This document shows, piece by piece, positions 2,880 through 48,000 of a stretch of 64,000 bases of DNA (the stretch's first letter is position 1; each line of letters opens with the position of its first letter). Location of the stretch: the NCBI GenBank assembly GCA_039566865.1, contig CM076944.1, positions 4,858,501 through 4,922,500 on the forward strand, in the 5' to 3' direction. The notes beneath the pieces are model-generated. The model had not been told where the DNA came from. It saw nothing but the letters and a program-made list of their open reading frames with translations, and searched no databases. The DNA is from Aurelia coerulea. Taxonomy: Eukaryota; Cnidaria; Scyphozoa; Semaeostomeae; Ulmaridae. The translations under genes and the position numbers were made by a program.

Positions 2880-3373
2880 CCCGGGGGGGGGGGGGTACTT
2901 GACCAGGTTTTGGTCGGGGACGTGCCATCGAAGCTTCAAAAACATACCCGTTCCTTATACCAATTCTCCGAAAAAAGCATACCAAAATCGTTCCTTAAAC
3001 CAAAATTGCGAAAATTGATACCGTTCCTTATACCAAAATTGCGAAAATTGATACCGTTCCTTATACCAAAATCGTGAAAATTGATACCGTTCCTTATACC
3101 AAAATTGCGAAAATTGATACCGTTCCTTATACCAAAATGGTGAAAATTGATACCGTTCCTTATACCAAAATCGTGAAAATTGATACCGTTCCTTATACCA
3201 AAATTGCGAAAATTGATACCGTTCCTTATACCAAAATTGCGAAAATTGATACCGTTCCTTATACCAAAATGGTGAAAATTGATACCGTTCCTTATACCAA
3301 AATCGTGAAAATCGATACCCTTCCCGATGGCACGTCCCCGTAACCAAAATATGTGAAGTATCCCCCCCCCGGG
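2880..3373. mobile_element. CCCGGG cassette A (33-bp minisatellite interior)
   Basis: Begins CCCGGG plus a G tract, then GTACTTGACC, then GGGGACGTGCCATCG, and ends with the mirror image (CGATGGCACGTCCCC, then a C tract and GGG). The interior is a tandem array of a 33-bp unit. No target duplication is visible, unlike copies C, F, G and H. Orientation by the internal word is GATACC. Confidence 0.8.
2985..3325. repeat. 33-bp tandem repeat, about 10 units
   Basis: The unit reads GATACCGTTCCTTATACC followed by AAAATNGNGAAAATT. Variants ATTGCG, ATCGTG and ATGGTG alternate at one position, giving a higher-order pattern. Because 33 is divisible by three, it makes long open frames on both strands (an 11-residue repeat containing FWYKERYQF on the minus strand). 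I regard these as non-coding. Confidence 0.9.
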
Positions 3374-3668
3374 AGTTCAAGTTTGTGCGAAAGCTGAAAC
3401 AATAGGACTCTAAATAGCATTTTTGGTACAAGTCAACTCAGGGCCTTTTGTCATAATGGGACGGGCAAAAGTAACATGGGCTATCCTTTATTGCTTTCGT
3501 TTTTTGTTTATTTTAAATCAAACAAAATGGGATTTGGAGATATCATCGACAACCTAACTTTCAAGCACATGGATGCTTCGAGGAATTCTGTGTAGAAAAA
3601 TTTGAAAATAATTCAGTCTCTGGTCGACTATGTTTTCATTATGTTTTGGACACATGCACTCACAAGCG

Positions 3669-3915
3669 CGGAGGGGGGGGGGGGTTCTTCCATATTAAAT
3701 TTACCTGGGGATGTGCCGCGAGGAAAGGTATACTTTTTCCGACTTCTAGTCTAGCCAAAGGAAAAATTCGTCAAAAAATAATGAAATAACGCTTTTTGAC
3801 AACCGACTTTAGAAAAATTGCCTTCTTTTGATACCCGGCGTTAGAAGAGGCGAAAACGATACCCAGAAAGGAGTGCACATCCCGTCAGCAAAACATACCA
3901 AGTAACCCCCCCGGG
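3669..3915. mobile_element. CCCGGG cassette B
   Basis: Left G tract (about 12 G) after GCGCGGA, then GGGGATGTGCCGCG. Right end GTGCACATCCCGTC, then AACCCCCCCGGG. The interior holds GATACCC words. Termini are partly eroded on the left and no target duplication is seen. Confidence 0.7.
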
Positions 3916-4242
3916 TTTTGGCCTTGATTCTTGCAAAATTTTTGCACGATGTTGCTGTTCAGATATTCAATTAACGTTTGCTACTATCCCGTAATCATGA
4001 AATAAATGTGTTGGTTTTATTCAAAAAGTGAGAAGGATCAAGAAGCTCAAATTGAAATCATTCAGAAACTTTTCAGGGACCCCAGAAATAGATAGCAATA
4101 TTTGGGGTCCCCAAAAACTCGGGCTTAATATTTTGGGGGTCAGCAAAGAAATAGTGGCATGGACCCCCCACGTATTGAAAGTTAGGGAGTACCCCCCTGG
4201 GGGATCTTCTGGCAAACGAGGCAAAATGTTTCAGGCCACCCT

Positions 4243-4500
4243 GTGACCTGCATAAACTATGGTTTTCTCGACAGCTATATACATATAATTTATCCTTGAT
4301 TGGTTTAGGATTGACAACGATTTAATTTTTTTTCAAAATTTGCGATGGATTTTTTCAAAAATGATTAAATTGCGGCCACTTTGAAAAAATTGAAGATATA
4401 AAATATTTCCAAGGCAGATTTACAGAAAAGTGCCACAAGTTCCTGTAAAGCCATTCAATTCTACGGAGACTTGTCATAGAATTTACACTCATCTTTAACG
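4243..4500. repeat. Dispersed repeat R1, copy 1
   Basis: Shares ordered blocks (ATGGTTTTCTCGACAG, AAATTGCGGCCA, AAGTTCCTGTAAAGCCATTC) with 45790-46200, 48775-48910 and 63570-63840. There are no terminal repeats or coding potential that I can see. Confidence 0.6.
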
Positions 4501-4535
4501 CACAGAATAGCGAGATCTTTCCATTGTGTCCATTG

Positions 4536-4855
4536 CAGAGGCGTAGGAACTGCGAGGCCCATGCCCCCAAGATTTTGCATTAAACGAAAAAATGCCCTTT
4601 CTATTTACATGAAGTGCCCCTTTGAGCATAAGCGTACGAGGCAGGGGGGCAGCCCCCGACTTTAAAAAATTATCGAAAATGAGCCCCAATCAGACAAAAA
4701 ATGCCCTCAGCGGGCAAAAATTATGCTAAACAATGGACTTTACGTTGGGCAGCCCACCTAGAATTTTTCTTCCCGTACGCTTATGCTCGAGCTTAATGAA
4801 AGAGTGCCCTTGAAGTGTTGTGTCCCCTAAGTTTGAGATGCTTCCTGCGTCCCTG
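4536..4855. mobile_element. hAT-like MITE with 8-bp target duplication
   Basis: Starts CAGAGGCGTAGGAAC and ends CTTCCTGCGTCCCTG. It is flanked by GTCCATTG (4528-4535) and GTCCATCG (4856-4863), a 7/8 match, as expected for hAT insertion. The interior repeats GTGCCCTT/AAGGGCAC words. A second palindromic insert lies at about 4618-4796, bounded by GCATAAGCGTACG and its reverse complement. A related, less complete copy is at 14683-14875. Confidence 0.75.
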
Positions 4856-4863
4856 GTCCATCG

Positions 4864-5714
4864 AAAGGCAAAAACTCGTGACAAAACAAAAGTGAACCAA
4901 AAAGAAGATATTGAAACAATCGAGGGCAGCTACAACGTAATCGATCGAAAACGAAGACATTTAGAGGTGGGGAAATGACCCAAACAGATGCATGATAAAA
5001 AGATATCCTGTACTTCGTTGTATTTGATTTCATTCCATTTCATTCTACAATCTTCATGACAGTTTGAAAACAAGTGAAACAATCCTCAACGAATAGCAAT
5101 GATACTGAAACAGCAAAAATGGTTACAAAACTCAGCAGAGATAAGGGAATGATCATGAATTATTACAGGGACCGAAGAGGAAGCACGAGGGGTCTGAAAA
5201 TATTTTAGAGTAAATTTTCTCCAGTTTCGAGTTTCTTTTTTCAGAAGAATGGATGCTGGTGTCGGAAATTAAAAAACGCCAAGTATTTGATGCTTTGAAA
5301 AGTATCTTAATTCTGTACAAGTTATCCCCATATCCCTTACTTTCTTTGTCTATCAAACCCTTTCTTTTCTTCTCTAATGGAACTCCTTTTTCCCTTCTGA
5401 ACTAGCTGCAATCTGCGAGTCCAGGAACGTTCCCATCTTTTGGGGGCAAATTACGACCATACAAATTGTGATTGTGAAAAAAGGGCTCCTAGGGCGAAAA
5501 CATCACACGACAATGACTTTTTCTGTAGCCGTTTGGATATGAACTATTTTCAACAAAAATTGGTTGTTATCTGAAATGCTACATACGTAGAATGCCAGGG
5601 GATAGATTTTGTACACAAATTTCAGTAATGCTTCCCACTCCTTTCCCTATAATATATAATGACCACTCTCAAACAGTCTTCTCTATGCAGCTTCTTCTTC
5701 CGGATAGCTAATTT
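4864..5714. other. No gene or repeat recognised
   Basis: AT-rich sequence without exon signals, clear terminal repeats or tandem structure that I can identify. Confidence 0.4.
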
Positions 5715-5830
5715 ATCACCACCTGCGGCGTCTTCGGCGGCGTCTTCGGCGGCGGCTAATGCGGCGGCGTCTGCGGCGGCGTCTGCGGCGGCGTCTGCGT
5801 CTGCTAGACCAACTACGACGGCGGCGTCCC
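5715..5830. repeat. GCG-rich 9-bp microsatellite
   Basis: GCGGCGTCT/GCGGCGTCG units repeat with TCT and TTC interruptions. They create an Ala/Ser-rich frame on plus and an Arg-rich frame on minus. GC content is far above the surroundings. Confidence 0.75.
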
Positions 5831-9448: not shown

Positions 9449-9568
9449 CTAGATGGAGTTCAAAGGATTAGAGTCACAGAAGTAGAATACATGTCTACAA
9501 AAAGTTTTTGGTGGGTGACACGAACACTACATACATCCACAAGTGATGGCCAGGGCAGCCCTCATTCT

Positions 9569-12053: not shown

Positions 12054-12413
12054 ACTGATGGAGTATCAAAATGAGGGGTCTGGGGGCAAAGTCTCCAGGA
12101 AAATCTCTAAGGACACTCCCTCTACTTTGGCCTAGAACGCTTCTTCCAATCCCATGTTTGGAGGTGCTAAAATTAAATTTTTAGCAAGTGTAACAGTAGT
12201 TTTATGAATTAGCATCCACAGGGAAATTTTTTGAATAAATATCTGTTCTTTGGCTGAAATTTTCGAAATTATATTAGCAATTTTCTATCAATCAACACTC
12301 TTATAAACATTTTCGCGCAAATGCTTTTACATCGCTGCAGCAATCCAATTTTTGCGTACCCCCGAAGTGGAGGCCTTGACAAAGTTTTTCCCGGAAAATT
12401 TTTGAAACTGATA

Positions 12414-12735
12414 CCCGGGGGGGGGTACTTAGTATATTTGTCCGACGGGGATGTGCCGTTTTTAAGGGTATCGCTTTCACCAATTTTTTCTAGCACAGGG
12501 TATCAAAATGCGGCAATTTTTCTAGAGCAGGTTGTCAAAACATGTTAAAGGGGAATATTCTGCTAGATCGGGTCGTTTTTCGGTCAAATTTCATGTTTTT
12601 GCGCATACTTTTCATCAATTTTTTCTAGAACAGGTTATCATTTTGAGCGAAAAATTCTGGAGCAGGGTAAAAAAAAACTTTTGTGGGCACACCCCCGTAC
12701 AAATTTAAGTCAAGTCAAGTACCCCCCCCCCCGGG
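12414..12735. mobile_element. CCCGGG cassette C with exact 8-bp duplication
   Basis: Starts CCCGGGGGGGGGTACTTAG with GACGGGGATGTGCCG inside, and ends AGTCAAGTACC plus C tract and CCGGG. Flanked by AACTGATA at 12406-12413 and 12736-12743. Internal units carry AGGGTATC, AGGTTGTC and AGGTTATC, each followed by a TTTTTTCTAGANCAGG-like stretch. The host sequence is a hAT-type MITE, whose other copies give the uninterrupted context. Confidence 0.9.
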
Positions 12736-13122
12736 AACTGATAGCTTTATTTTGGCTTAAAACTATTCTCCCGGTCATTTTCTAGCATTTTTCAGAGAGG
12801 CTTACCCTACACTACCAAAACTCAACTATTTTCTTTGAAAGAATCTCTAGAACCATCTTTTGACAGAAGTGGACGGGGCCTTTACCGTATCTTCACTCTC
12901 GACTGTATTCATTTCTTTGAACAAGTTCACTGACATATGGAAGGATTCAAATGAAGCGAGATGTCCATTATTCAAGAATGCAAATCTACTAAAGAACTTC
13001 TAATTTCGCAAAAGGGCCCTTTTCATGCAAAAAGGGGGCCCTTTTTGCAAGATTTTGAGGGGGGCCAGTCCGCCACTGGCTACGATCCATAAACTTAAAA
13101 TTGTAATATGAAAGTTCCTTAC

Positions 13123-14670: not shown

Positions 14671-14682
14671 CATTCCAACGTA

Positions 14683-19912: not shown

Positions 19913-20159
19913 AATAGACCTTTTAGCTATTCTACAAAAGAGCCTGGATCGAGCGTTATTTTTATACGCGAGGCTCGATAGAGTGGTGTTAAGAGCTTCT
20001 ATCACTATTGTGCAAATTCGAAAATTCTACAAAGTGCACTTTGTAGAATTTTCGAATATGCACAATATTGATATAAGCTCTAACGCCACTCTATCGAACC
20101 TCATGTATAAAAATAACGCTCGACCCAGGCTCTTTTGTAGAATAGCTAAAAGGTCTATT
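19913..20159. repeat. Near-perfect 247-bp palindrome
   Basis: The left half from AATAGACCTTTTAGCTATTC to a centre at GTGCAC (20034-20039) is mirrored to GGTCTATT with few mismatches and no spacer. Transcribed, it would form a stem of about 120 bp. A decayed relative lies at 46250-46440. It ends 472 bases before the start codon of the PRELID3-like gene. Confidence 0.9.
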
Positions 20160-20663: not shown

Positions 20664-23600
20664 GTGAGTATTGAGCTGCTGAATGTATTGAAAATAGGAT
20701 AAGTTGGGGAGGGCCTAATAATTATATTCTCAAGGAATGCAAATCACCTCTCGGTCTGTATTTATAGGCCAGTCAGTAGTAGGCGCATCCATGGCCCAGG
20801 CCCACCACCACTTTATTATCATGTCATGCAGTAGCTGGTATTGGTTTCATGATCAGTGTACGAATGAATTTCAGATCACTTCAGAGCTTACTCTGGGGTG
20901 CTGTGGTGGTGCCTTGTGGCTGTGCCCTTGTCGTGGGCTCTTGGCCTTATTAAAACGAAAATATAGCTGAAGGAAGGAAGATAGTAGTTTTCCAAACTAC
21001 ACCCAGGGTGTGCAGAGAGTATGGTAACCTGTGTGCAATATTTCTTTTGTAAAACTGAAAGAAGCTGAAAGTAGAAAGACTGCGCATCACAAAGAGATTT
21101 CTTTGCCTTTGGCTGACTCGGCAAAATGGAGGAGATCTCTAAAAGCCAGATTGGAAAATTTGCGTGAGGGATTAATCCCCGGGCACTTTTATGTTATCCA
21201 CACTGCCATACGTGCAATCTACTTGTATAGTATTTAAGTTGTGCTATGCTGATATGCTCATTGTTAACTCAAATTTGCATACTATTTGCGCCATTTTTAT
21301 CCCCGTTTGAAAATCCCCTGCGCACTTTTCAAACTTTCCAATCTGGTATAAAAGTAATCTGTTCTTTCAAACTTTTCATTTTTGAAGAATAGGAAGCAAA
21401 GATGTTATAGAAGCTGACTGTGTTGCAGTTCAGAGAATCTGTAACCTGGTTCTAATTGTTTCATATTACAATAGAATCAAGATACGAATAATCACTTACA
21501 AATGCACAGTCTTTCTTTTTACCGTTCCTTTGATTTCACACAAAAGAAAGACTGCACATTCTGTACCCAGGCTAAGTGTATAGCCCTTGCAGACCAGAGA
21601 TTTGCACACCAATAGACTATTTGAAATAGATGCCATCTATCATCATCATCATCATCATCACTTTATTTGAAGTAAGCTGACCTCCAACTTTGTACAAAGA
21701 CAGTCCTTGAGATTATTTCCCAGACTTGTTGGGGAGATGAGATCGGGTTTGTTCGCGGAAAATAAATGTCCCCCCGTGCTTACAGTAGATACGCATGCGT
21801 ATTAGTAATTTTAACATCGATACGTTGCAGCCCCCCGTCTATTATCCACAACAAACCATTACGACTGCTGAATTATATTGTCGTAATGGCAGATTGGCGA
21901 AGCGGTAACCTGGAGCTCCTCACACGCCGGCAACCCGAGTTCGAATCCTCATCGGAGTAGCTTCTTATTTTAACAATTTTTTTCTTCACGTCCCTGCTTG
22001 TTCTGCTAGTGCAATCTGGTATGAACATCATATTTTGAGCAAGCAACGGGCTTTAAACCAAAACCAACCCCACGTTTAGGCCAATTGGATAAGAGCAAAG
22101 AGGCATCGCACTAGGACCGACAGGTATTTGTCTCACGACGACACAAGCACTCTACAGCAAACTGTGTCGAGAAAGACTGGAAAGATTGTATAACGCGGGC
22201 AATATCTTGCATGCACAGAACCTTTGCACAGTTTTCAATCTGAACCGTGCAGTTGGCAATAAACAAGAAATCTATTGCTTTAACCTATTGTCCTCATCTG
22301 CGGAAACTCCACTTGCATATGCGCAAAATACAACCTTTCCGGTCTGGATTATTTCGAAACGAGAATAGTAAATGGCTAGGAACGGTCAAGTACACTATCA
22401 AGTAGCAATTCTTTGATCAAATGGCAGCCATGTGATTAAGTAAAAGATCTCCAAGCACAACAGGTCTTTGGTTCTTGAATCTAGTAACTGTTCCCCAATC
22501 TATGTACAAATTCTGTCTATTTTCACTAAAGTGGTAAATTTATATGGTCACATAGTGAATGAAACAAAGTATTTTAGCAGCAGATTTAGATAATCCATCA
22601 ATTAGACACCACAGTTATGCTTCAGGTTGTGTGCTTCTGCAGTGCAAACTTAATATCATTCCGCGGAGTGTGGAGGAGTTTTCAACTCCAATCTCTTCCG
22701 CAACAGCTCCATAATATTTGCAGTAATAGTATAGAAATAGTTCCTCTGCAAGGCCTACAGCTTTGGAAATCAAGCACAACTGTGGCATTGAACCACCCAT
22801 GGTAAATCTTTGCAGAATTTGTACTTGGATTGGGGAGCAGTTACTGGAATTAGAAATCATAGGAATCTTTTTTGGTTTGGAATCTGAAATTCTGCACATT
22901 TTTGGGAAAGAATGCAGGTTTTATATTTTCTATGGGACTGATTACATGAGAATATTCACCATGGGGCTTGGATTTCAGCCCTCCTACCCAGGGTAAAAAT
23001 ATCATTGATCACATGGGAGCTTTCAACCCAGGGCTGAAAGTTGCTGCCACTTGTCAAATTAGTTTTCCAATGGTGAAAACAGTTATTGTGATTACACCAG
23101 TGCCTCTGGAACAAGACAATAGAGATTAAGCAATAGTTAGGTGTGACAATGAGGATTAAAGTCACTCAGCAGGGAAGGGAGCTGGAATTTCACCTTGGAT
23201 AGTATAGGAGGGCCGAAATTCCAGTCCTGTGGTGAAACCTGCCATGTAATCAGGCCCTGGCCTCCTTCTTTTGCAACATCCATGTTGTTTCATATATGAA
23301 GTCAAAAATTAAATTTTCTTCCAGCCACACATGGGATAGGGTAACACAAGCCCTATGGAGGAAATATCCAAATAAATTAAATCCAAATGTGAAAGCAGTT
23401 GATGTATTAGATCGTAAAGTGGCAAAAGATGGCAAACTTCATACAGTGAGAATGCTTGGAACCAACTGGAACATGCCAGCTTTTGTAACTGCTGTCTTAG
23501 GGATGCCAGACATGTGCTATGCATTAGAATACTCCATAGTAGATCCACAAACAAAAGAAATGACATTGAAAACTGTAAACTATACTTTTAGTAGTGTTAC

Positions 23601-28018: not shown

Positions 28019-28066
28019 TGTCTCCAAAATGAACATTCTTGTCAATCTTCATGATCCAATAGCCAA

Positions 28067-28388
28067 GGGGGGGGGGGGCTTCTTTACCCAAATTTGTACG
28101 GGAACGTGCTCACGACAAAATTGTTTTTTTACCCGTTTCTAGAATTTTCCCTCCAAACGACACCCACCCGATTCTAGCAAAAAATTATTAAAGGTATACT
28201 CAAAAACACAAAAATTGGACTAAGTAACAACCAGATGTAACCAAATGTCCCTTTTGACATGTTTTGACCACCGGCTCCAGAAAAATTGCCCTCTTTTGAA
28301 ACCCGTCTGGAAAAAATACGTGGAAACGATACCCTGCAAAATGGCACATCCCCGTCTGACAAATAGACTAAGTACGCCGCCCCCCGGG
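28067..28388. mobile_element. CCCGGG cassette E
   Basis: Left G tract (11 G), GGGAACGTGCTCACG, units with GACACCC and GATACCC words, then ATGGCACATCCCCGTC, AAGTACG and CCCCCCGGG. TCCAATA occurs near both edges (28055-28061 and about 28394-28400), a possible but imperfect target duplication. Confidence 0.75.
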
Positions 28389-28563
28389 CCGGGTCCAATA
28401 CAACTTTAGCTAACATTGTTTATACCCATTTCAGGTCATGTGACCATACACTTGGGAAATCATCTCATTATCTGTTGAAACAGTTACCCGCATCGCACTT
28501 TTCATTGTATGGAGTTTTACCTTTAAGAAAAGAAAATTTCCCTAAGAGGATAATCAGGAGACT

Positions 28564-29169
28564 GTGGAGAGGACTAAATACCTTGGTGTCCAGTTGGACA
28601 GTCATCTTGTCTGGGATGAGCATATAAAGTGTATGAGAACTAAAGTGTCTCGAGCCTTAGGTTTTGTTAAGTATGCAAAGAAATTTCTCCCTGAGGAAAC
28701 GCTCAGTAAGATGTACAGAGGAATTGTTGAACCCCACTTCAGGTATTGTTGCTCAGTTTGGGGATGCTGTGGTAAAACCCAAATTGACACTCTCCAAAAA
28801 TTACAAAATCGAGCTGCCAGAATTGTTACAAATAGCAGCTATGATGTTTCAGCAGCTGGTCTGATCAAAAGGCTGACATGGCCAACTATCTTAGACATTA
28901 TTCAAAGTGAAACAGCGACTATAATGTACAAGTCAACAAATAGTCTTGTGCCCGAATATCTGTCTGAGTTATTTGTAAAAAATTCAGCTCTCAACACAAT
29001 GAGACTAAGAAATACCGAAGCTGACTTGCGTGTTCCTTTCTTCAAAACGTCAAATGGGCAGAAGTCCATTTCATTTCGAGGGCCTAAGGTTTGGAACCAA
29101 TTAAGTTCAGATGTCAAACATGCACCCTCCCTTTCAACTTTCAAAAAGAGGCTAAAAAAGAAATTGTAG
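28564..29169 (+). pseudogene. 5'-truncated LINE: reverse-transcriptase C-terminal region
   Basis: Uninterrupted frame of about 200 codons with the post-catalytic part of a CR1/Jockey-type non-LTR reverse transcriptase: KYLGVQLDSHLVWDEHIK, ALGFVKYAKKFLPEETL, YCCSVWGCC, LQKLQNRAARIVTNSSYD, SFRGPKVWNQLSSDVK and a basic end. The YxDD catalytic region and endonuclease are missing, as expected of 5' truncation, and an AT-rich 3' flank follows. The intact frame suggests a fairly recent insertion. Confidence 0.88.
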
Positions 29170-29640: not shown

Positions 29641-31763
29641 AACAAAGCAGCATTGCGTTTCAGTAACACAATAGCATCAGATATTTTATTTGACACCTCA
29701 ATTCAAAGCGATTAACGAATTATCTCAACCAGTAATTCAAAACAAACAAAGCCGCAAATGTTGCCCCGAAACCATAGGGCAAACTCTCGCCTTGTGCATG
29801 CAAAGGGTGGTTTGTGTGCTTACAACGAAAGAAGAAGGGTAAAACTCCAGATTTACCCAGCATATGAGTCAAATCTTTCAATAGGGCACAGGGAAACCCG
29901 CAAATCTTCCAATTTCACGCTTATAAGCCAATGATATCGTCGTATTCCGATCACATGACTGAAAATAAGGCTTTCGAGATAAATTTTCGAGTACCTTCAC
30001 GAAAATAAAAATGGATATTCGAGTAATAAAGATACAGAGCTGGTTTTACCACGAATCGATTCGAGAGGCCCCACTCCACATTTGTTTTTCTGCATTTGGT
30101 TAAAATCTTATCAGGGATCGGCGTTACATCGAATTTTATTCCTTCGAAAATTGGCCTATGCTCAAGAATTCTTCAGGAACGCTACAAATAAGATATAGCT
30201 TTCAAAATTTCACATGTTACGTGAATTATGTCCAGGAATAACATGAAGGTATTTGTTTGTGTGATTTTCGAAAATCCTAGAGGAATTAAAGCTATTTGCT
30301 GCGAAGAAAGCTAATGGGCCTACCTTCACCCGCCGCAGAATCCCAGTAATCGGCATTAAATCACTCTTTTTCGCAATAATAACCAGCGAATACATTAACG
30401 AATAACTTCACCACAAATTCAATTTCTTTTCACCATTTTATCATCGATAATTTCGATAAAATGTGACAAGACTTTACAGCCTCTGCAGCAAACCGTCCAA
30501 CTACCGTCGATTCATAGTTTTCTTGTTGCAAACACCAGGAAAGCTTGCATAAAACAAAAGGTTGTGCAAGGCTCAGATCTCCCATATGACACAGCAAAAT
30601 GTTACCATTGATAATAGATTGTACACCTTTGAGAATAGATTGCAGGGGAAATTTCTTTACACAAATTATGTACTTTTCCGATGTGACAAAGAAATTTGCA
30701 ATCTTTGAGAAATGTTTTAATTTCTCTTTATTTTGCAACGATAGAAAGACTTTAGGAATGTGCAATCTATTCTCAAAGGTATCATTTTGCTGTGTCATAT
30801 GGGAGACCTAAGTCTTGCAAAACCTTTTGTTTTATGCAAGTCTTGCAAGACTTCCAACGTGTTTGCAACAAGAAAACTTTGAATCGATGGTAGTTTCGAC
30901 AGTTTGCTGCAGAAGCTGTAAAGTCTTGTCACATTTTATCGAAATTATTGATTATTGAATGGCGGAAAGAAATTGGATTTGTGGTGAAGTTATTCGTTAA
31001 TGTATTCGCTGGTTATTATTGCGAAAAAGAGTGATTTAATGCCGATTACTGGGATTCTGCGGCGGGTAAAGGTAGGCCCATTAGCTTTCTTCGCAGCAAA
31101 TAGCTTTAATTCCTCTAGGATTCTCGAAAATCACACAAAAAAATACCTTCATGTTATTCCTGGACATAATTCACGTAACATGTGAAATTTTGAAAGCTAT
31201 ATCTTATTTGTAGCGTTCCTGAAGAATTCTTGAACATAGGCCAATTTTCGAAGGAATGAAACTCGATGTAACGCCGATCCCTGACGAGATTTTAACCAAA
31301 TGCAGAAAAACAAATGTGGAGTGGGGCCTCTCGAATCGATTCGTGGTAAAACCAGCTCTGTATCTTTATTACTCGAATATCCATTTTTATTTTCGTGAAG
31401 GTACTCGAAAATTTATCTCGAAAGCCTTATTTTCAGTCATGTGATCGGAATACGACGATATCATTGGCTTATAAGCGTGAAATTGGAAGATTTGCGGGTT
31501 TCCCTGTGCCCTATTGAAAGATTTGACTCATATGCTGATTTACCCTTATTCTTTCGTTTTAAGCACATAACTCCGCTTAAAAACCATCTTTCGCGTGCAC
31601 AAGGAGAGAGTTTGCCCTGCTGGTTTCGGGGCAACTTTTGCGGCCTTGTTTGTTTTGGATTACTGGTTGAGAGAATTTCCTTTGTCTGCAATCGCTAATC
31701 GCTTTGAGTTGAGGAGTCAAATAAAGTAACTGATACTATTGTGTTACAAAATATGTCCTTGTT
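29641..31763. mobile_element. 2.1 kb foldback element, copy 1
   Basis: Two arms of about 1 kb (29641 to about 30640, and about 30760 to 31763) are inverted copies. The outer ends carry AACAAGGACA/TATTTTGTAACACAATAG and CAAAGCGATTA, shared with the 54058-54716 element. The centre is about 110 bases. No open frame. Long inverted termini plus the 9-bp duplication of the sister element suggest Mutator-like. No clear duplication at this copy. Confidence 0.85.
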
Positions 31764-33029: not shown

Positions 33030-36000
33030 CTGTTTAAAAAAGAAATAGAGTTTTAAATATAGAAAATGTAACTTCAAAAAGGCCAAAATTTATCTCATTT
33101 TGCATATGACTGAAAATTTCCTATGTTCCTTGTCCACTATTTTTATAACGGAATGAATGGAGTTAAAAGCCATGCGCAAATTTCCCAATCAAACTCAAAC
33201 ACTAAATTCTTCAAAACAGCAGGTTTCAGATTCATCCTGACGAAAACGCGGTTTCCAGTTGAAAAACACGATTACGAGTCTGGTGCTTGGCAACAAAGAG
33301 TAATGTTGTCGATCACCATAGCAACGCGAGCAAATTCGCCTCGTTTTCAGAGTTTCGTAAATGAAAATGAGAATCTCCCAAAGTCTGCCAAACCTTCTGC
33401 CTTTAGGAGCAAAAAGTTCAGCAGGCCTTCCAAAAATGCAAAACCTGCCGTTTTCGAAATTTCGGAGTCAATCAGACACAAATTCCGAGTCTACCAAGTC
33501 TACCGTTTTCAGAATTCGTACCAATCAAACACACTCAAAGACATGCAGCGAAATTTGACTAGACATAAGTTTCGAAGAGTTTTACATACGAGAATACACC
33601 TTCACACTTTCAAGCTTAAACCAAACCAGGTTACACTCATCTTTTTTTATAAGAAACTAAGGTCCGGGGCTGGTAGGCAGTTCCTTAAATTTTTGGGTCA
33701 TTTTGCAACTAAAGTTTCTTACGTGTTTCTTATACTTTAAATGCCAGAAGCGTAGATTGAATCTTGTTTTGTCTGAAGGGTTCCCAAATTACTCAAGATC
33801 TCAAAACAAGTCAATAACATAATTCGCACTCAAAATAATTTCCAAACAGTTGCTATAATAACTGTACAGAGTCAGAAATATTGGATTGCGACAGGAAAAT
33901 TAAAACTGTAAATTACAACAGTTTCTTAGCTTTATAAATCCAGGTAGGGTTGTTTCTTAACTTTCGAAAAATTGAGCCTACCGTTTCTTATAAGCGGTTT
34001 CTTATAAAAAGAAATGAGTGTATCACATTCTGACTTCTAACTGGTAAATCCAATAGATCGATTTAACTTTTTTATTGTGAATGATGATGGAGTATCAGTT
34101 AAGAATACTAACAGGCATAAAGATAAAATATGATAGCCATACCTGCTTATAAAAGAATCGATGAACTGCTTCTTGTGTCCATGGCTGGTTGAAGAACTCA
34201 GATTTCCTTTCATCCTCCGGGTTCCCTGTGACATCTGTCATGGTCTGTAAACAAAATTCGAGATTCGTACAAGAGTTTCCTTTAAGCGTCTTAAAAGATA
34301 CAACTCCTGTTGTGGTTAGTAACTCATATTTTGCAACGAATTTATTCCAATCAAAAGTTGCTTACCTTAAGATCATTTAGGAATGAATGATACTCAGTTG
34401 CAAATCCGTCTACGCGTATTTTTTTTATAAGAAACTAAGAATTTCGACCAGTACTGAAAGTTTCTTGAAATTATCAGATTTTGAGTACTCAGAGTTTCTT
34501 ACGAGTTTCTTAGAGGCTCCATGACAATCTTTATGTTCACTACCTGTGCCCTCATGAACATTTCAAAACGAGGTTTTTAAAGCCTTTCCGATGTTTAGAC
34601 ATTACACGAGTACCATACGAGTAATATGATACAGGAAACAAGTGAAAGTGAAGTAAAAATATGTCAAGGATTTCCTTTATCAAAATAGATAGTTTCTTAA
34701 CTTATATTTTCCCAGTACTGGAGTTTCTTAATTTTTTGGCGATCTGAGAGTTGAATTCCTTATGGGCAGTTTCTTATAAAATAAATACGTGTATTTCTTC
34801 CTTGGACCTATTCCTGAAACCATTTCCCGTAAACAACAGAAAATCAGCAAAAATCAAGCTAAAGTTTGAAAATTCCAAGTGAAAAACTGTCCATCTGTAC
34901 TGCCATTTTCATTGGAAAATTAATGTTTGAAAAAATCTTTCCTGTTGGGAGACAAACAAAAAATACATCTCTAGCAGAAATCCTGGCAGATTCTTAGGGT
35001 ATGTTTGATTAGTAAAATGTCAAACATACCAAATTCAGAAAAAAGGGACTTCCCAGAGACAGAAACATATTTTCCATTCAAACACAAAAATCCAAAAAAA
35101 GTATGTTTCTGATTTACCATGACGATTCGCTCAAAAAACAAGAATCTCTCCAGAGGCTCTCTCTTTTAAAGTGTCAAAGTGCCAAACTCTCTGCCTTTTG
35201 GAACTCTCAGAACTTGAGAACTTCGGTGTCAATAAAAAAAAATTCCAAGTCTATCAAGCCTATCATTTTGAGAATTGGTACGAACCAAACACACGCTTTG
35301 AAAATATTATTTTCCTGATAAATAGTGCACCATAATCGGGTAGTGCAAAGACTCATCCTCATTTGGCGCATAAAAGGGCAACAACTTGCAACTTGACGGA
35401 TCTGCTACACCCGGGGGGGGGGGGTAGCTTCAACAGGCAGATTACGGGGGTGTGCCATTTGGACTTGTGAAGTCACATCCTAAAATCTATAAATTTTCCA
35501 AAAAGCATACCCTAAAATTTACGGGCCATTCAAGATCTATACCCTAAAATGTTGACAAAAATTCTAACCAAGTATATGAAATTATATCAAAATTGATACT
35601 CTAAAGATTATTCTTCTGAAATGGCACCCCAGAAAAATTTATGTCCATTTGTGATCTTACCAAAAATGACACCCTAAAATTTATTTTCTGCCTGAAAAAG
35701 GGCACCCCAAAAATGGCACATCGTGTACCGGTATACATGGTAGTTACCCCATCCCCAGGTTGCTACAACGTAACTTTGATAGATAAGAAAATCTTATATT
35801 TTATGCAAGTAACTGGGAAAGTTTCTCACCTTTAAATCTCTACTTTGAGAATACAGCCAGTCATTTATGAACTTCTATAAAGTGTTAAGAAAATATATTG
35901 ATGAAACAGTGTCAATCTGGAAAGCGTAATTTATATTCATAGGAATAAATATATTCTAAAAGTTTGGAAGTTGTCCAAAACATTTGAAAGCTTACGAGGA

Positions 36001-39000
36001 TCGATATATGAACGTCACACAGGAAGGTTGACTTCAAAGAAACAAAGAGCAAGTTACAACCGTTGAAATTTGTGGCGCTATTTACAAAATTATTGTCGCA
36101 AAGGCAAGTTTCCAACAGCTTGATTGGACTAAATTTATGTTTTGCTTTCAAGTACAGCACTTTCTTGCAGTTTATTTCATTGGTTTAGGTCCAAGTGAAA
36201 ATTGCTATATATTATTTTCCTCCTCAATATCACCAGGGAAAATACGGACCAAGTTTATGCAACAAGTTTAAAGGCATTGAGTCCATATAAATAGCTGAGC
36301 GTTAACGCTATCCTGAATTTTTGCTGACAAACCGCTGACCGCCCTTTGTTATCGAGCAATAGTGCTAAAGTCATTAGCAGTGGAGACCAAAGATTTCTTC
36401 ATCCTTGCATTATCCTTGGGAATTTCTTTGGGTTAATTTCAACAGCGATTGATCACAACTTTTGTTTTGTGATTGAAAAGAAGTTGATAGTGGTCATGAG
36501 CGTGCTATTTATAGCCTGGTTTTCACTAGAGTCATAAGGATCATAAGAATCATAAGAAGCATAATTTTCAGATCTTATGACGCTTATGATCAAGTGAAAA
36601 CACCAAGAATCCTAATCGTAAAATGATTATCACTTGAGTTGATCTCTTAAAACGCGCGACATAAGGATCGTAAAGATCAAAAACTTTTTCATCTTTACGA
36701 TCCTTACGACCGGATGTGCCGGATTAAGCCTTTGTTTCTTCAATTAGATGAGGCAACTGCAGCAAATTCCACTCAAAAGTAGGCCTTCCAAGTGTATTCC
36801 TAAGCAGAGAACTGTAATTATTTGTACAAAGTGGAAGTATTTCCGGTGGAGAAACCATGGGAGCAACTAACAGATGCCCAAAATCTTAGATAGCTTCAGG
36901 AAAAAGTCTCATAAAGATTTTGAGTGAAAATTTGTGGAATAAATCGTGTCTCATTTCCATTTCTGTGAGACCTGTGCATTCTTACCAGAATCTACATTAT
37001 CTGGAACATAAGAGAGAACGATAGCAAAGGCCACACTGCATTTTCAAAGGAATTTCTTGCCAAGCTTGCACTATTATAGCAGGATTTTAAGGAAAATTAT
37101 GTTTCTTACGATCGTTATGATGCAGTGAAAACAACTAAGTCATGAGGATCGTAAGCATCATAAGATTTCAAAATTATGTTTCTTATGACTCTTATGATTC
37201 TTATGACTCTAGTGAAAACCAGGCTTATGTGGACTCAGTGCCTTTAATTTTTTGACGGTTTATGCAAGTTTATGCATCTTGTTTCAATCACTTGTTTATG
37301 TTCTTCGTAAATCTCCAACAGCAATTTTCTGAAAATTTACCCCCAAAACAAGATGGCGTGATATTTTTCAACGTTACTTGAAATCATATTTTGGTTTTCT
37401 CCTGGAGCAGACTCATTCGGTGCCAATCCGCTTAAGAAACCTACATATGCTAATGACTGAAATTTTTGAAACAAAATCCGATCTCGATCCACCGTTTATT
37501 AAGAATATCTGTATGCAGCGAAACATTACCTGCAAACCACATGCAGTTAATGCATCTTAGGCATGGCACTGACATACAACTCCCAAGGTACATATTACGT
37601 TCTTTGGAGTTGAAACCATAGCTCACCTTGGAAGTAAACTGTGGCAGTTTTTACAGCAATAAATTTAAAGAATCAAGTGTCCTTTCTATTTTCAAAAACA
37701 AATGAGACGCTGGAATGGGGATAAACGCAACTGTAGGCTCTACAGAACGTATGTTCGAAATGCTTGGTTTCCAACAGGATAGATGTTTAATTCCTTTATC
37801 CTGTAAGAGGCCCTTTACATGGAGACCTGACATGAAACTCATGCCGCCATGAAAATGCACCCTGTTTACATTAGAGCCGATATGAAACTCATGCCGGCAT
37901 GAACTCATGTCACCATGAGACCCGACATGAAAATTTCCAGATACGTCATACATTTGTCACGTACATTTAGTTTTCATATCGCCCCGATATGAAAAGGTTG
38001 TGTTTGCATGAGATTTTCATCCCATTTCCATGCCGGCATGAAAAAGCGACATGAAATTTTCATGTCGCCCCGAAATGAAAGTTTCATGTCGCCCCGACAT
38101 CATGTAAACACAACAGTAGCTCAGACCAGCACCCGATATGAAAACTCGTGCCGGCATGAGTTTCATTCCGGCATGAGTTTCATGTCGGGTCTCATGTAAA
38201 GGGCCTCTAAATTATATTCTCAAACATCAAATCTTAAAACATTGATGATGATTGATTATGATGATGGTGATGATGATGATGATGACGATGATGGATAGAT
38301 GAATGCTACATGAAGTAAGAAAATAAAACAAACAAAATTAGTACCTGCGGATCATTAGCAAATGACAAGAAGAAATCTCTTTGAACCTTCAATTGATTGA
38401 TTCCCTCTACCGTTTCATGAATCTGATTGAAGAAAGTCATAGGTATTTTAAAAGTTAGGATTCCTGTCAATGCATAACCAATTTAAAGAGGCCTGTGCAA
38501 CCAACATGCCTCAGAGGCCGACTATTTGTTCAGAGGCCGACTATGTGTGGGAACAGGGGAACACCGCACCGTTCTCAGGAAATTTTGCAAGAATTTTAGG
38601 CTGCAGGAAATATTTTATATAAAAGGCTGAATTTTCATGCTACCGTCAAAACACAAGAACCATTCAAAATTTTTATCCATAAAACAAGATTGAATTGCTG
38701 CAGTCAAGAAGAATATGTATGAAGAGGCTCGTGTTTAGGATCTGAAAGAGATTGTTTGTTATAAGTAATAGAGTTCATTCAGCTCAACCGGTCATCGAAC
38801 TTTTCAGATGCCTTTTGTGCATAGTGCTTTTCGTTCAAGGAAGGAAGAAAGTTGTAACCAAATTTGTATGTGCATTTTGGGTGCTCCTTTTGATGATGAA
38901 CGTTTAGTACATTTCAGTTGCTCACCCCGGGGGGAGGAAGGGAACTCCCATACTTGACCTGACGGGATGTGCCGCTCAACAGGGTGTCCTTTTGCGGTAA

Positions 39001-42000
39001 AATGTATGCAACAGGGTGTCCTTTTCTAACAAAATTTATGCGACAGGGTATTAGAATAGGTAAGAAAATTATGCGACAGGGTATCACAAGCAAAAATCGC
39101 GTTCTACACTGTATTTGAGAGGCAAGATTTTTATGCGACAGGGTGCAGGGTGTGGAGAGGTTTTCCGCACACCCCCGTCACTTCCCTAATTAAGTACACC
39201 CCCCGGGTTGCTCCCCTATAGATGCCGTGCCTACTTTTGAGCTACCTGTACCTAGTATTCATTCTTTGAATTGTACAGCAAATCCCCGCATATAAGAACC
39301 TACTTTTTTGAGAGCTAGGCTGAAATAGGTTCTCATTTTAAAGGTACTAAGCCAAATTTCAAGGTATAATGGTTCTTATTTGAAGAGTACCTTGCGTAGG
39401 CCATTTTAGAACCTTCGTCAATGATTTTCAGCCCTATTATTTGTTTTGGCAAGGTTATAATATACCTAATAACCAATGCTAAGCTTTCAAACAGCAGGGG
39501 AGGAGATTCAAACATTAAAAGCCCACTGGGACAAAAATGAACGTAACACTGACAATCCAAAATCATCTCTGCTACCCCTGCTATAAGAATATATTTTTCA
39601 TCAAACTGAAACAGGTTCTTAATTACAAGGTGCATAAGTTAGGAAAAACAGGCTGTAGGTTCTTATTTTTTTAGGTTCTTACATGCGAGGATTTACTGTT
39701 TGTATGCAATATAAGTATTGTTTCACGTCAATTGAGTTTAAACCTGAAGTTGTAGGTTTATGAATGTGTGAAATTTCACTGAGTAGGTGTGAACTATATT
39801 CTACCTACACCTACACCTTGCACGAACTACGCTGTACAATCCACTAAATTAATGTAAAATTAAATTAAAAAATTTGCAGGAAGTTTTGACGAAATCTTTG
39901 CCGTTCCCAGGAAGAAAAATATTGTGTCGGCCTCTGTTTTTGTTGTCAGTCATTTTAGTGGACCATGAAAATAGTGTTGGGAAGTCCTTCACAATCTGCG
40001 CATAGTTGAGAAGCTACCGGGTGTCCCAAAAAAAGTACTCCTGTTTAAAAATCACCAAAAATTGATTATCAAACCTTTGATGAAATTTTCTTTTTGAATT
40101 GCTCTATCAAAGACCCAAAATATTCACAGATGATAAAATGTTTGCTTTTGATACAGCAAGGTAGGAAATTTACACGTTGAAAAACCTTATTTTGAGCTAT
40201 AGTTTTAAGCAAAATACACAATCTTGCCTAAGAGTCAAAAATCTCAGATTTTCTATAATCATTGAAGTCTCCAATGATAGTGCGCATTTATTTCTGTCAT
40301 TTATGACCACACTAGAAGATTTACACACACAAAAAATTGATTTAGCAATCATCAGTGCTTTTTGCAGTATGATTCAAAACAGGTAGCCCTAAAAAGAGCT
40401 AAATTTACTCACTTTTAAACATCTTACAAGATCAGCTATGTCTTATAAAATAATTTGGTCTTTGATCTACTTAACAAAAAAAGAAAATTGAAGATCGGCC
40501 GTGTAATCAAATGTTGGTGATTTTTCAAACGGGAGTACTTTTTTTGGGACACCCGGTACCTGTACAGTGTAGTGCATTCAGAAAGTATGCCGGTTGATGG
40601 GGCCTTTACCGACTATCAATCAGTTGATTCAATAAGTTGCTAATCCAATAATAACCAGTAATCATTTTGTTACGGGAGTAAATTGATTTCAAGCTACTGG
40701 CAGAAGGAATTCAGAAAAGAATTCTTATGAATTCGGGAATGTTATTACTCTCCTACGCAGAGGTTCCTTGTAAATTCCGCTACGCAGTATCCTAATCCTT
40801 GCAATGACAGGGGCAAAATGATAGGGGAACCTCTGCATAGGAGAGCAGGATGTTAGAGGACAAGTCCAGGATTGGTATGATTGATGATAAAATGCGAGAT
40901 TATACTGTCATGGATAGTGTATCGTACTTTTTTCCACAATTTTTTGCCTTTCCTTGCGAAATTATGTTTTCAAATAAGCGACTTGTGGACAGTGACGTCG
41001 TCACCAGTAAAGATTCTCCCGGAGCTTTGCACAAATGACGTCACTACGCACAAATCGCTTGTTTGAATGGGTGACTTCGAAGAGAAACGATGAAAAATGG
41101 TGGAAAAAAGTACGAAACACCAATCATAACATAACCTTGTATTTTATCATCAATCATACCAAACCCGGAATTGTCCTTTAAGTCACGAAAGAGCTGCGTT
41201 GCCTTTGCAAAGACACACTGCGTTCTAATTACGAATTTTCAAAGATTCTATAGGGAGCTCGATCAACATCTTGGTGAAAGACCCTTGCTGCCATCTTTAG
41301 TGCAATTATGCTCTGTCGATACGAAGACCGAAAGTGAGAAAGTAGGAAAGGAACATTTGGAAACAAAAACACAATATAAAGATTATCAATGGGTAAGAAA
41401 ATTGAATTTTCTGGATACCTTGCTGTCCAGGGAAGAAATCTCTTGCTGACTGGCAGTTGACAATAGAAACGATTGCATCATCTCTCTTAGGGAATCATCC
41501 TTAAAAAAAAGCAAAGAAGTCATAAAAATTGGCCTTAAAACATTGGGTAGATAGAGAGTATTACCACCATTCTGACAATGGCGAGCTGCTCTTCTTTATG
41601 AAATTTGACAGGCATTATGATTTCACCAAAGTTTCGAAAAACCTTGTTTCTACCCGGTGAATAAAAATCTTACACTTTTGGAAAAGTCACCAAAATGTCA
41701 ATATGCTGCTGATCGTTAAATTTTCCATTTGTGTATTTGTGTCACAGACTAATGGAATCTGATAGTGATTGTTATCTTGTTTTTCTTGGGGAGAAACGGC
41801 AAAATTACGGCCAGGCGTGCATAAACATGGGAACAAAGTTCCCAGGCAGCTTTTTCCAAAGCAATATTTTGCAGGCAGTTTTTCTTAAATAGTTCTTATG
41901 AAATGTTATTGTGATTAGTTTCCAAACTAATATCTTGCAGGCAGTTTTTCAATAGTTATTTATGAAATGTAATTGCATTAAGATGATGAATAATAGCAAA

Positions 42001-45000
42001 CAAAAGGTGACACATTGCTTTTTCAATCCTCACTGCACGTGCTCCAACCAATTTTCTTCTTACCTTCCCACATGGCATGCAGTTCTTTAGTGAACCCTTC
42101 AAAGCTGAGATTCTTAAGCGGCCCTTGATTTCTGGATTATTGCGTTGCTCCGTGTGTAAAAACTTACTGTTTGATACCTGCATTCTTACTGGTTCTAGTA
42201 ATAGACTTCTCTACCCTAGCTGCACAAAATTGATATGCAGGCAGCCTTTCAGAGAAGTTCTACCGCTCCCAGGCAGGTTTGAACATTATGCACGCCTGAT
42301 TACGGCATTAAAAACCTATATTTTGAGTAAAGCCTGGTCGTGACAGTCGGCGACGCGTTGCCGAGGCAGGCTCGGGGACACATCGGGGACGGTTGAATTA
42401 AAAGGAAACATTTGGTGAATGATGTCCCCGACGTCGCCGATCAGACGGGCACAGTACGGGGACGCATCCGAAGAGTTGAGGTGAGTTGAACTTTTTCAAC
42501 CGTCGCAGACCAGTCACCGTAAAGCCTCAGACTGCTGCGATCAAGATTCTTAATATGGAAACAGGCTTTTTGGCTGCACTGCAACGTCGGGGAATTAACA
42601 TCGATCCCAGCACACAAGACAAATATGTTTCGATATGAGCATAAGGATCCCCGATCAGTCGGCGATCCATGACTACGACCAGTTGTTGACTGTTCAGATT
42701 ATATGGGAACAAGTCTTCCGATCAATCGCCAATAGAACGATGATGCATCGCAGAGATACGTCGCCGATCGATCTGCAATCTCTCACCGACTGTTGCGATG
42801 ATATGGAAACCAGACTTAACAGTATTTGACAAAAAAATGTCATTTCAAGCCAAAAAGCAATGATTTTTTTATTTCGTATGGTGCCTTTGAGTCCTACAGG
42901 ACATAAAAGCTACACCAAGGACACGAGGAACCAATTTATGTGGTAGTGCGGCATGAAAATCAATTTTGATCATCGTTCCTTGTAATTGCAGAGTATGATA
43001 AAATATAACAAAATATGGAGATAATAAAGGCTATACAAAAGTTCCTGTTGGTCTCTCCTTACGGACAAATTGCTTGAACAAAAATTACACGCAACTGCAG
43101 CAACAGATTTAGGTAGTCAAATAGATACATTTAGTATCCATTAATTGTATTCGGGGAAAATGACACGAGAAAGATGAAAAACAAAGATTTATTTGTACGC
43201 CCTGGGGCTATAAGAAACGTTCTGATTTATGAATGAATTTTAGCATTGATTGCAATTTTTTTTTATTGTGATTATGCAAACATGTTTATCACCATACAAC
43301 ATTATACAGTAAATCCCCGCATATAAGAACCTACAAAAATAAGAACCAAGAGGCTGTTTTTCCTAACTTATGCACCTTGTAATTAAGAACCTGTTTCAGT
43401 TTAATGAAAAATATGTTCTTATAGCAGGGGTAGCAAAGTTGATTTTGGATTGTCATTTTGTCCCAGTGGGCTTTTAAAGTTTGAATCTCCTCCCTTGCAG
43501 TTTGAAAGCTTAGCATTAGTTATTAGATATATTATAACCCTGCTAAAACAAATAATAGGGCTGAAAATCGTTGGCGAAGGTTCTAAAGTGGCCTACGCAA
43601 GGCACTCTTCAAATAAGAGCCGTTATAGTAATATAATATATAAATGATTTAAGTACCAAAAATAGCTTCGATGTTTAAAACATGGCGTTTCGAGCATATA
43701 CTCGTTATCAAGTGAACCGTTATACCTTGAAATTTGTCATAGTACCTTTAAAATAAGAACCTATTTCAGCCTAGCTCTCAAAAAAGTAGGTTCTTTTAGG
43801 TTTGATTTGGTGGCTCACTGCACTGGCTCACTGCACTGGCTCACTGCACTGGCTCACTGCACTGGCTCACTGCACTGGCTCACTGCATTGGCTCACTGCA
43901 CTGGCTCACTGCACTGGCTCACTGCATTGGCTCACTGCACTGGCTCACTGCACTGGCTCACTGCATTAGCTCACTGCACTGGCTCACTGCACTGGCTCAC
44001 TGCACTGGCTCACTGCACTGGCTCACTGCATTGGCTCACTGCAGGGTGGCTCACTGGAAATCGAACATTCGATACTGATATATATTTGGCGTCCTATCGC
44101 CCATGGCAAAACATATATTGTTTATCTAAAGCCGGTTTTCCACTAGGTGAATTTTTTCGCACGAAGCGAATTTTTTCGTCGCGGCTGAAAAGTAGAAACT
44201 GTTCGAACTCACTTTTTCGCAGAGAAAAGGAGCCGGCGAAAATGTGGCGCCTGTTGAAAATCAAAGTGCGCATGCTTGCACACGAAAAAGTTCGCTTCGC
44301 ACGAAAAAATTCGCCTAGTGGAAAACCGGCTTAACATGGCAAAATCTCAGCTTCGAAAAATTCAATGATGTAACTTACGATTTCGACATCAATATTGTAA
44401 CACATTGCTTTCTTTACATCTTGTCCTGTGATTCTGTAATGGAAATGAAAATAAAATTTTGGCTGATAGCCAGCACAGCCAGGATGGCCAACAATTTCTT
44501 TTCTTGTTCCACCGGGTGTGTCAACAAAAGTTAACACGTTTGGCGGGCTGTGATATAAAAAGTACGTCGCCGATATTCAAAACCAAAATGTTAATCTATC
44601 AGTCAAAAGCTAACTTGAAAATTTTGTTTGGTAAAATCATTCACCTTTTTCTTTCACCAGCGATTAGCGCCAGCGATCTTAATTGATCCCGTGTGTTGTA
44701 CGCGAAATCACACTTCGGTAATTTCATACCTTACTATCAACGCTAGTGTGCACTTTAGCAGACCAGCTTTGGCTAGAGTGCAGTTTAGCGGGTGGCATTC
44801 GAATGTTGTGTTGTTGTTTGTCATACGGTAAGGGTTAGGGTTAGTTTCAGAAAAGCGTTTTCGGCGTAATTTAGCGTTAGTTAGGGTAAGTTAGGGTTAG
44901 AACCCGGGGGGGTACTTGACTAGGGAAGTGACGGGGTGTGCGGAAAACCTCTCCACACCCTGCACCCCGTCGCATAAAAAATAGGCCAAAAGTATACCCT

Positions 45001-48000
45001 GTCGCATAAAAATTTTGCCTCTCAAATACAGGGTAGAACGCAGTTTTTGCTTGTGATACCCTGTCGCATAATTTTTTTACCTATTATAATACGCTGTCGC
45101 ATAATTTTCGTTAGAAAAGGACACCCTGTTGCATAATTTTTACCGCAAAAGGACACCCTGTTGAGCGGCACATCCCGTCAGGTCAAGTATGGGAATACCC
45201 CACCCCCCGGGGGTTAGAAAGGGTAAGTTAGGGTTAGGGTTTGGGTTAGGGTTTGGGTTTGGGTTAGGTAGGGTTAGGTTAGGGTTAGGATTGGAATATG
45301 ACATTTAGCGCCGCCCGCTAAACTGTACTCGTCCCACTATCAATAGCCATTATTTCAAACACACTAATACACGTTTAATGTTTTTTCTCAGAACTTTCAA
45401 CCCCCTTCGGTGGCCTCTTCAGTGAGAGTGGTTGAATCTTGCGAACCTTGCGTTCTTGCACTGTTCGAGGGATTTATGTTCGCAAAATTTCTCTGAACAT
45501 TCATCTTTCAGACCCAGAAATTAGAAAATTGCTGGAAAGTGGCTTGTATGGGAATGAGCATTCTAAACATAAGGCTCAAAACTTTAAAAAGGTCGGTGTA
45601 AAATTCTATTACGATTTCATTCGAATTAAATGGCTTGGAAGGAACTTAGCGTTCTTTATTGTAATTCTGCCGTGGCAATTTATTGATATCTTGATTAGTT
45701 TCAAAATGGCGGCATTTATTAAATTTGAGGCTATGACGTCATCAGATTTCTAAATCCTAAACCAGAAATGATACTGATTTCTGCTTTTCACCATATTGTA
45801 GGCCTTCATAAACTATCGTTTTCTTGGAAGTTATATGATTTTTCCTCCTTTGGTTTAAAATTTACGATGATTTAAATGTTTTCAAAATTTTCCATCAATT
45901 TTTTCAAAAATTATTAAATTGCCGCCATTTTAAGAAAAATCAAGATATCAAAAAAATTCCACGGTAGATTTAAAGCAAAGTACCATAAGTTCCTTTCAAG
46001 CCATTCAATTCAAAGAAAAATGGAATAAAATTTTACATCCACCTTTTTAAAGATTTGAAAGATTTGAGCCCTATGCTAGCATTCAACGTTCAATTCGGGG
46101 TCATGATTTACTTGCCATTAAAATATAAATTCAATACAATTGTCTGTTTCAAAACCAGAGTTTAAATTTCAATGGCAAGTAAATTATGGACTAGAATGGA
46201 ACGTGGAATTCTTTTTCAGTACAGAATTCCGTTAAATTTTACTCCCAATAGAATTAGCTATTCTACGAAAGAGTCTGGATCGAGCGCTATATTTACACAT
46301 TTTTATTCAAAACGTTCGTTTGCGTAATATTACAGCTTTTACCACCGTTGTGAACATTCAAAAATTCCACAGATTTCTACAAAATGTACAAAAATATCGT
46401 TCTATCCAGATTCTTTCTTGAAATAGCTAAAAGGTCCATTGCTACTGTACTTATTCACGGCTACCTACTTGATATTATGTTGTATGATAATAGGATCTGG
46501 AGGGTGCAACAATTTCTGTAAGCGTTGAGGAATCTCACAAAACTTCATTCTTTCGCAGTCAAATATCTAAGAAGAAGAACAACCAATTAATAAGGAGCCA
46601 TAAATTTAAACTGCAAACCCCCCCCCCCCCCCCATCTACTTTGAAAGCATAAACTCCGATCGTTTTTTGTCTCGAAAGGCGGAACGAGACAAACGGCTCA
46701 GAGTGGAGCAAAATGGGTCATTTATTTTTAAAATATTTAGCATTTTATTAAGTTTCCTTAAATCGTTATTTTCATCTATGGTAAAGAAAACTGATGAAAA
46801 GAAATAAATCTTTACAATGTATATATTTAAAAGAACTTGTGCGAGATTTGAATGGCCGCTGTGGAGAAGTTGTAATTTCAATGGTCCCAGTTTCGTGTGT
46901 GAAGAAAAAAGTGTACATTCATCAAAACTGCTGCATAGTAGAGGCGAGTGGGGGACCTCTCGTTTTGAAAAAACCTCTGACTTTCTTGCACTATAACGCT
47001 GCAGTTACTTGTCTCATTTATCCAACAAGGTCCTAAACTCCATGTTGAAACGGGCTCCCAATTTCAATGGTCCCAGTTTCGTGTGTGAAGAAAAAAGTAC
47101 ACATTCATCAAAACTGTTGCATAGTAGAAGCGTGTGGGGGGCCTCTGGCTTTGACAAAGCCTCTGATTTTCTTGTTTAACGTTGCAATTACTCGTCTGAT
47201 TTATCCAAACAATGTCCTAAACTCTATGTTGAAGCGGGCTCCCTCTTCCGTACACCACCTTAAAATTGGCTTTTGAGTGTCAAAAACACTTGAACTTAAC
47301 ATTGTACGATACATGAAACAAAAGAACTAACTTGTGGTCACTACTCTGCAACAGATTTACAAAGAAGCTTGCGAAAAGAAAGATTATGAGTAACTGTGTA
47401 CTTGCTGACTCTGACAAGGAGATTACTTGATAAACATATATGGCAGCTCTCGCGTTGCACATTTCCACCTGTAGAAACGCCAGATCTGATAAATCATTGC
47501 TTGCATACTATACTTGAATATATATTTAAATATTAGGATTCTGCAGATAATTTGAAAAATAAAAAGGTACGCTAGGAAGTTCTATTACAACGTTTTCCTG
47601 GTTCTAATGAATAAAAGACCCTCTTGATTTGAAGCAACTTTCTGAATATCTTGTAACACAACGCTGAAATAAGGCGATTGTCTGATTTACTGAAACAGAG
47701 TCTCAAACCATGCTCAAACTCTGAGTAGCAGCCTCTCCCTAAACAATAACAAAAGCAAGACCACTGAAATCACAACTTCTCCGCAGTAGCTATTTAAAGT
47801 TAGTTGACGGAGCTAAGTAGCGGCAATCTATAAATAGGACAAAGAAACGCCTACGAACGTAATTGCTTCCCTAGTGAAAAGATATGCACGCACGTGTCGA
47901 AATCATCAAATACAATAGGTTAATTTTAGACATGCACATGCAGCCCTTGAGTTAGCTATTTATCTCCGTCAACTAACTTTAAACTGCGCACAAGTTCTTT

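Follow-up and report, generated by a model that had tools for sequence, protein, structure and literature searches.

Are short tandem arrays with G-rich, CCCGGG-type borders local minisatellites that happen to resemble one another, or are they mobile elements that carry an array as their body? The question is raised by a stretch of 64,000 nucleotides of the Aurelia coerulea genome (hereafter the window). The initial annotation listed eight such cassettes in it, all of which were found at the positions given there or a few bases off (A to H), and we add a decayed ninth copy (I).

Ends and arrays of the cassettes

We call head the element end that carries the first GGGTATC unit. Three elements lie on the forward strand: C (12414-12735; head left, inner box ACGGGGATGTGCC at 12445-12457, first GGGTATC unit at 12466), G (38926-39207) and D (25464-25700). 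The last was recognized by its head end and a 32-bp period; a terminal profile search of the window recognized no right end for it, and its end coordinate is nominal. On the reverse strand are A (2880-3373), whose head is at the right and whose ends enclose ten near-identical 33-bp units (array at 2989-3324), B (3669-3915), with a decayed left terminus, E (28063-28393), F (35410-35759) and H (44903-45211), which sits within a degenerate TTAGGG-like stretch. Eleven copies of interstitial telomere-like GTTAGG repeats adjoin H (45227-45289). An ORF of 207 amino acids adjoins E (28546-29169); its sequence presumably resembles the final part of a LINE reverse transcriptase, and Pfam returned no match for it.

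The ends span about 45 bp and have two parts, an outermost CCCGGG followed by a G tract and, beyond a spacer of variable length, a box (ACGGGGRYGTGC). These terminal inverted repeats are common to the dispersed copies. The description of the cassettes as CCCGGG-bounded is literally correct at both ends of A, C, G and H only, the hexamer having decayed at the left of B (CGGAGG), the left of E (CCAAGG) and the right of F (CCCAGG); the longest G run per end ranges from 2 to 13 (17 ends). Likewise, the proposal that everything in a cassette is mirrored holds for the ends, whereas the array runs mostly one way from one end.

The terminal profile was built from 16 stretches of 75 bp, namely, 15 cassette ends and the stretch at 905. 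By construction, it recovers its 15 cassette ends (both of seven elements and the left one of D), and it adds a single non-training end, near 2015 on the other strand (E-value, 0.0019). This end closes element I (905-2013, reverse strand, 1,109 bp), which has CCCGGGGG at its left end and, at its right end, TCCGGG, then the box, and then GGGTTTCATTTTTC from position 52 off the end. Elements A to H, with 237 to 494 bp, are too short for a transposase, and a Pfam search of seven ORFs from I, aimed at a transposase relic, gave no match. Our searches found no transposase or autonomous partner of the cassettes, no match among known RNA families at gathering thresholds, and, by four exact-pattern scans, no relatives in viral and prokaryote contigs. 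A published description of the family was not apparent from the titles and abstract openings of the matches listed in open PMC; a Repbase entry may exist.

The body of most elements is periodic. The best autocorrelation lag per body, set against 300 shuffles, is 32 bp in B, C, D, F, G, and H and 33 bp in A, or about three helical turns; apart from B, where 30 of the 300 shuffles attained it (not significant), no shuffle did so in these elements. Element E has no period by this measure (190/300 shuffles reach its best lag). When aligned on GGGTATC, the units have AGGGTATCATTTT in common as well as an A/T-rich second half, the anchors having been set by hand and the units of D and some of F deviating from the motif. 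The first body unit in the head consists of GGGTATC and a T run. In 9/9 elements, it begins 52 to 60 bp from the element end, and the first GGGT follows GTGC after a gap of 8 to 10 bp (9 bp in seven of them, 8 and 10 bp in one each), with F read at GGGGT. This gap is kept although the letters between box and unit differ and the outer spacer varies. The polarity is imperfect: in B, a GGTATAC also lies 10 bp inward of the box at the far end. Outside the cassettes, the window also holds a 13-bp tandem array (TGGCTCACTGCAC, 43811-44056, 18.8 copies).

Profiles built with one subfamily left out list the left-out units ahead of outside matches for A, B/C/E, F, and G/H, though not for D. The E-values are weak (0.8 to 3.2 for the first such matches), as is the unit similarity between subfamilies, and when B/C/E was left out, C alone of the three was recovered. 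Since the left-out units precede outside matches in most subfamilies, a common descent of all units from a single array is probable. We also considered whether the array repeats the end box and rejected this: a 13-bp box matrix, which misplaced 2 of its 15 sites (F head and H tail), found no body match above the 95% shuffle level in eight elements. As putative transposase-binding sites, the units would thus be of a second kind.

Target duplications and dispersed copies

Flanks were compared flush with the element ends at lengths of 3 to 14, leaving out the one-ended D. The exact 8-bp repeats reported initially for C (AACTGATA, 12406-12413 and 12736-12743) and H (GGTTAGAA, 44895-44902 and 45212-45219) are present at the literal ends, with 8/8 matches each at length 8 only. 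Similarly, the 7/8 repeat of G (TTGCTCAC at 38918-38925 and TTGCTCCC at 39208-39215) was confirmed at literal ends and at length 8 only, and that of F (CTGCTACA at 35402-35409 and TTGCTACA at 35760-35767) holds with the right end placed at the CCCAGG hexamer (35759). Element E, absent from the earlier list of duplications, has 7/8 (TCCAATAG at 28055-28062 and TCCAATAC at 28394-28401) with ends at 28063 and 28393, which were picked after viewing the flanks; when each end is free to shift by 5 bases, 5.4% of random trials already reach 7/8. With first-guess ends, the flanks of F and E matched at 3/8 and 1/8. No 8-bp duplication was found at A (2/8 at 2880/3373) or B (2/8), and I has 5/8. Therefore, 7/8 or 8/8 is reached in five of the eight two-ended elements, two of them after their ends were reread, and in 5/9 elements overall. 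Random pairs with fixed ends give 7/8 in 0.08% and 8/8 in 0.006% of cases; inside the telomere-like flanks of H, the values are 2.5% and 0.7%.

Considered jointly at length 8, the eight two-ended elements have 46 matches in 64 positions between their own flanks, versus 15.0 for swapped flanks. Of 40,320 permutations, 2 reach this score, one of them being the true pairing. At every other length from 4 to 12, the own-flank match of these elements is at chance.

The left side of A is unusual. A 10-bp direct repeat, AGTTCAAGTT, lies at 2500-2509, and its other copy (10/10) abuts the right end of A at 3374-3383; at every length tested except 10, this outer repeat shows 5 matches or fewer. The pair is possibly the outer duplication of A. 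The intervening stretch of 362 bp (2518-2879), in which no inverted ends were seen by eye, is itself flanked by CCCGGGGG at 2510-2517 and 2880-2887. The simplest reading would be that A originally started at 2510, flanked by a 10-bp duplication, until a later insertion into its first eight bases duplicated them.

Homologous copies occupy unrelated sites on both strands. After all elements were turned into one orientation, B aligned with C at 76% over 127 positions, belonging to the subfamily of C and E over about half of its length. E and C share 76.5% identity over an alignment of 328 positions, and G is 83% identical to H, which has the opposite orientation, over 314. When 300 bp of flank was included on either side, the alignment of C with E (76.5%) began at the first base of C and broke off 4 bases before its end, and that of G with H (83% over 317 positions) stopped 1 to 2 bases outside the elements; neither pair shows homology in these flanks. 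Homology that stops at the termini between unrelated flanks is as expected for separate insertions. Moreover, when H is deleted along with a single 8-bp copy, a 20-bp neighbor repeat reappears at 18/20 positions, while removing the element plus any other number of bases k (0 to 20) gives at most 12/20 at the same lag. We regard this as support and not proof, because the stretch is repetitive and high scores also arise with different lags at different k.

Relatives on other contigs provided a second data set. An ORF crossing the 33-bp array of A matched 26 database proteins, and two further searches from these matches brought the total to 95, which we read from their sequences as translations of cassette relatives lying within unrelated sequence and not as real proteins. 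In translation, the relatives have one end like PGG..GTGTCHREG or GRAIGKG, a far end like MARPRPKSGQVHPPG, and units of mostly 11 residues each. For 92 of the 95, which come from ENA, the longest contig measures 0.18 to 8.8 Mb. Since such stray ORFs can extend into both flanks, the target duplication becomes testable at the codon level. For own and swapped flanks alike, we counted how many of 8 bases could be made to agree by some choice of codons, trying nine registers; the outcome depends on codon degeneracy and on a reading of the flanks by eye. A first test on 8 loci was weakly positive (P values of 0.043 and 0.018). With 24 loci, a full 8-bp match was possible in 15, versus 1.7 expected (z, 7.4; 0/20,000 permutations), and z for lengths 5 to 10 was 0.8, 3.4, 5.2, 7.4, 5.6, and 3.1; wider registers gave 16/24, versus 10% of swapped pairs. 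After five loci were added, a perfect 8-bp duplication was encodable in 16 of 29, versus 1.8 expected, with z values of 7.5 at length 8, 5.4 at 7, and 6.1 at 9, the other 13 loci staying below 8/8. Given codon degeneracy, part of the signal would be expected at 7 and 9 for an 8-bp repeat.

Proposed mode of transposition and possible role of the array

The initial annotation had proposed mobile elements that duplicate 8 bp of target and have a tandem array as their body. The flank match at length 8 only, the dispersed copies with sharp ends, the restoration of the H site, and the codon test all uphold this proposal. The family has common ends, 8-bp duplications, sharp-bordered dispersed copies, a shared period, and a fixed box-to-unit spacing. 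Target duplications of this type arise from a staggered transposase cut, and short non-coding copies move in trans. We consider it very probable that the cassettes are non-autonomous, non-coding MITE-like DNA transposons, mobilized in trans by a putative transposase. This enzyme would make an 8-bp staggered cut, and the elements might move in cut-and-paste fashion through a transposase of the DDE type. The array would be an ancestral, built-in part of the element, lengthening or shortening after insertion through slippage or unequal exchange. The cassettes would hence be a concrete source of dispersed minisatellites, which land already tandem and then evolve locally.

Two other views of what the elements are have to be weighed against this one. 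Plain minisatellites whose G-rich borders and flanking repeats are alike by chance could be invoked most easily for H, which lies in repetitive sequence where 8/8 is least surprising. However, the sharp common ends, the presence of homologous copies at unrelated sites, and the specificity for 8 bp in two separate data sets make this explanation hardly credible. The elements could also be of the Mutator/Foldback kind, with duplications of variable length (8 to 10 bp), as in the Tetris element of Drosophila virilis. Such an origin would be in keeping with the eight-base duplications, with tandem repeats carried by a TIR element, and with the 10-bp outer repeat at A, and Tetris, for which the authors suggest Mutator, is described as a non-autonomous Foldback element with internal tandem repeats, 8- to 10-bp duplications, and an autonomous partner that was not found (PMC4079207). 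As described there, though, Tetris carries 220-bp units inside both of its long inverted repeats, which reach 1.7 kb (PMC4079207), whereas the cassettes have one array between short ends, an arrangement unlike that of Foldback elements. Furthermore, the signal of the eight elements in the window lies exactly at 8 and is absent at both 9 and 10. A Mutator/Foldback identity is thus quite improbable in our estimation.

Within the transposon reading, the role of the array is less settled. The chances are about even that it is passive, that is, a slippage minisatellite that arose in one ancestor and has since been carried along without function, the element itself still being a transposon. Its length changes freely, G being 27 bp shorter than H and A having ten nearly identical units, its units lack the end box, and the common period may be simple inheritance. 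Less easily accommodated are the gap of 8 to 10 bp from box to first unit, retained in 9/9 elements despite differing spacer letters, and the 32- to 33-bp phase, kept in most bodies while the units diverged. By analogy with other elements, we tentatively suggest that the array may be a row of secondary transposase-binding sites. A role of internal repeats in transposition has been suspected in Foldback elements and is backed by binding data on Galileo. In this member of the P superfamily from Drosophila, the tandem repeats are reported to hold extra transposase-binding sites; the footprinted site is centered about 70 bp from the end, compared with 53 to 63 bp at the 5′ end for the P element (PMC3688188), and the first unit of the cassettes begins at 52 to 60 bp. 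Both are TIR elements with internal tandem repeats; however, those of Galileo are described as lying inside 1.2-kb inverted repeats, and its transposase is known, whereas the cassettes place a 32-bp array between short ends (PMC3688188).

A stronger version, in which the array is a working part made of helically phased putative binding units, at a fixed distance from the box and mainly at one end, seems unlikely to us. If true, it would, together with the G-tract ends on a CCCGGG palindrome, point to an undescribed transposase lineage that assembles along the array, and transposition would, as a side effect, plant new minisatellites across the genome. The several subfamilies, with one ground plan and differing array lengths, make the role of the array in transposition testable via natural copies.

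Known transposons and other repeats of the window

Among the superfamilies with an 8-bp target duplication, hAT elements have ends that begin with CA(G); the cassettes have the duplication length of hAT and end in CCCGGG instead. The P superfamily also makes 8-bp duplications, a length that the cassettes have in common with it, as they do with Zisupton (KDZ), for which 8-bp duplications are reported (PMC12730594). A Merlin family of Symbiodinium combines TIRs of 51 bp with 8-bp duplications and tandem repeats in its interior (PMC8101967). The 8- to 9-bp duplication given for the Merlin superfamily fits the cassettes, but its terminal 5′-GG does not, because their outermost bases are CCC (PMC8101967).

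CMITE of Acropora, a group of coral MITEs with a conserved internal region, offers another comparison. It is reported to have a TTAA target, piggyBac-like ends (mostly CCCTTT), and a length of about 100 bp, and the sections consulted describe no internal minisatellite (PMC2872659). A CMITE/piggyBac identity was rejected, the cassette flanks having no TTAA duplication and the ends being different (PMC2872659). A MITE that contains a minisatellite is reported in Porphyromonas gingivalis, a bacterium (PMC4596501). The "mirage" minisatellites of amphioxus were likewise rejected as a counterpart; as reported, they consist of intron-exon boundaries copied in tandem and are of a different nature (PMC3087553).

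The window contains further repeats of its own. A near-palindrome of about 247 bp (19913-20159) is 92.7% self-complementary and has diverged pieces at 46254-46440, forming another MITE-like repeat. A long imperfect inverted duplication (about 80%) is found at 30300-31095 and at 62053-63401, pieces of the second copy, about 32 kb away, being up to 94% identical; from its sequence, we read it as another dispersed foldback-like element. A 76-bp unit is present in two tandem copies with 96% matches (53668-53818). Finally, an exon-like ORF at 23236-23652 encodes a PRELI domain (E-value, 7e-32).
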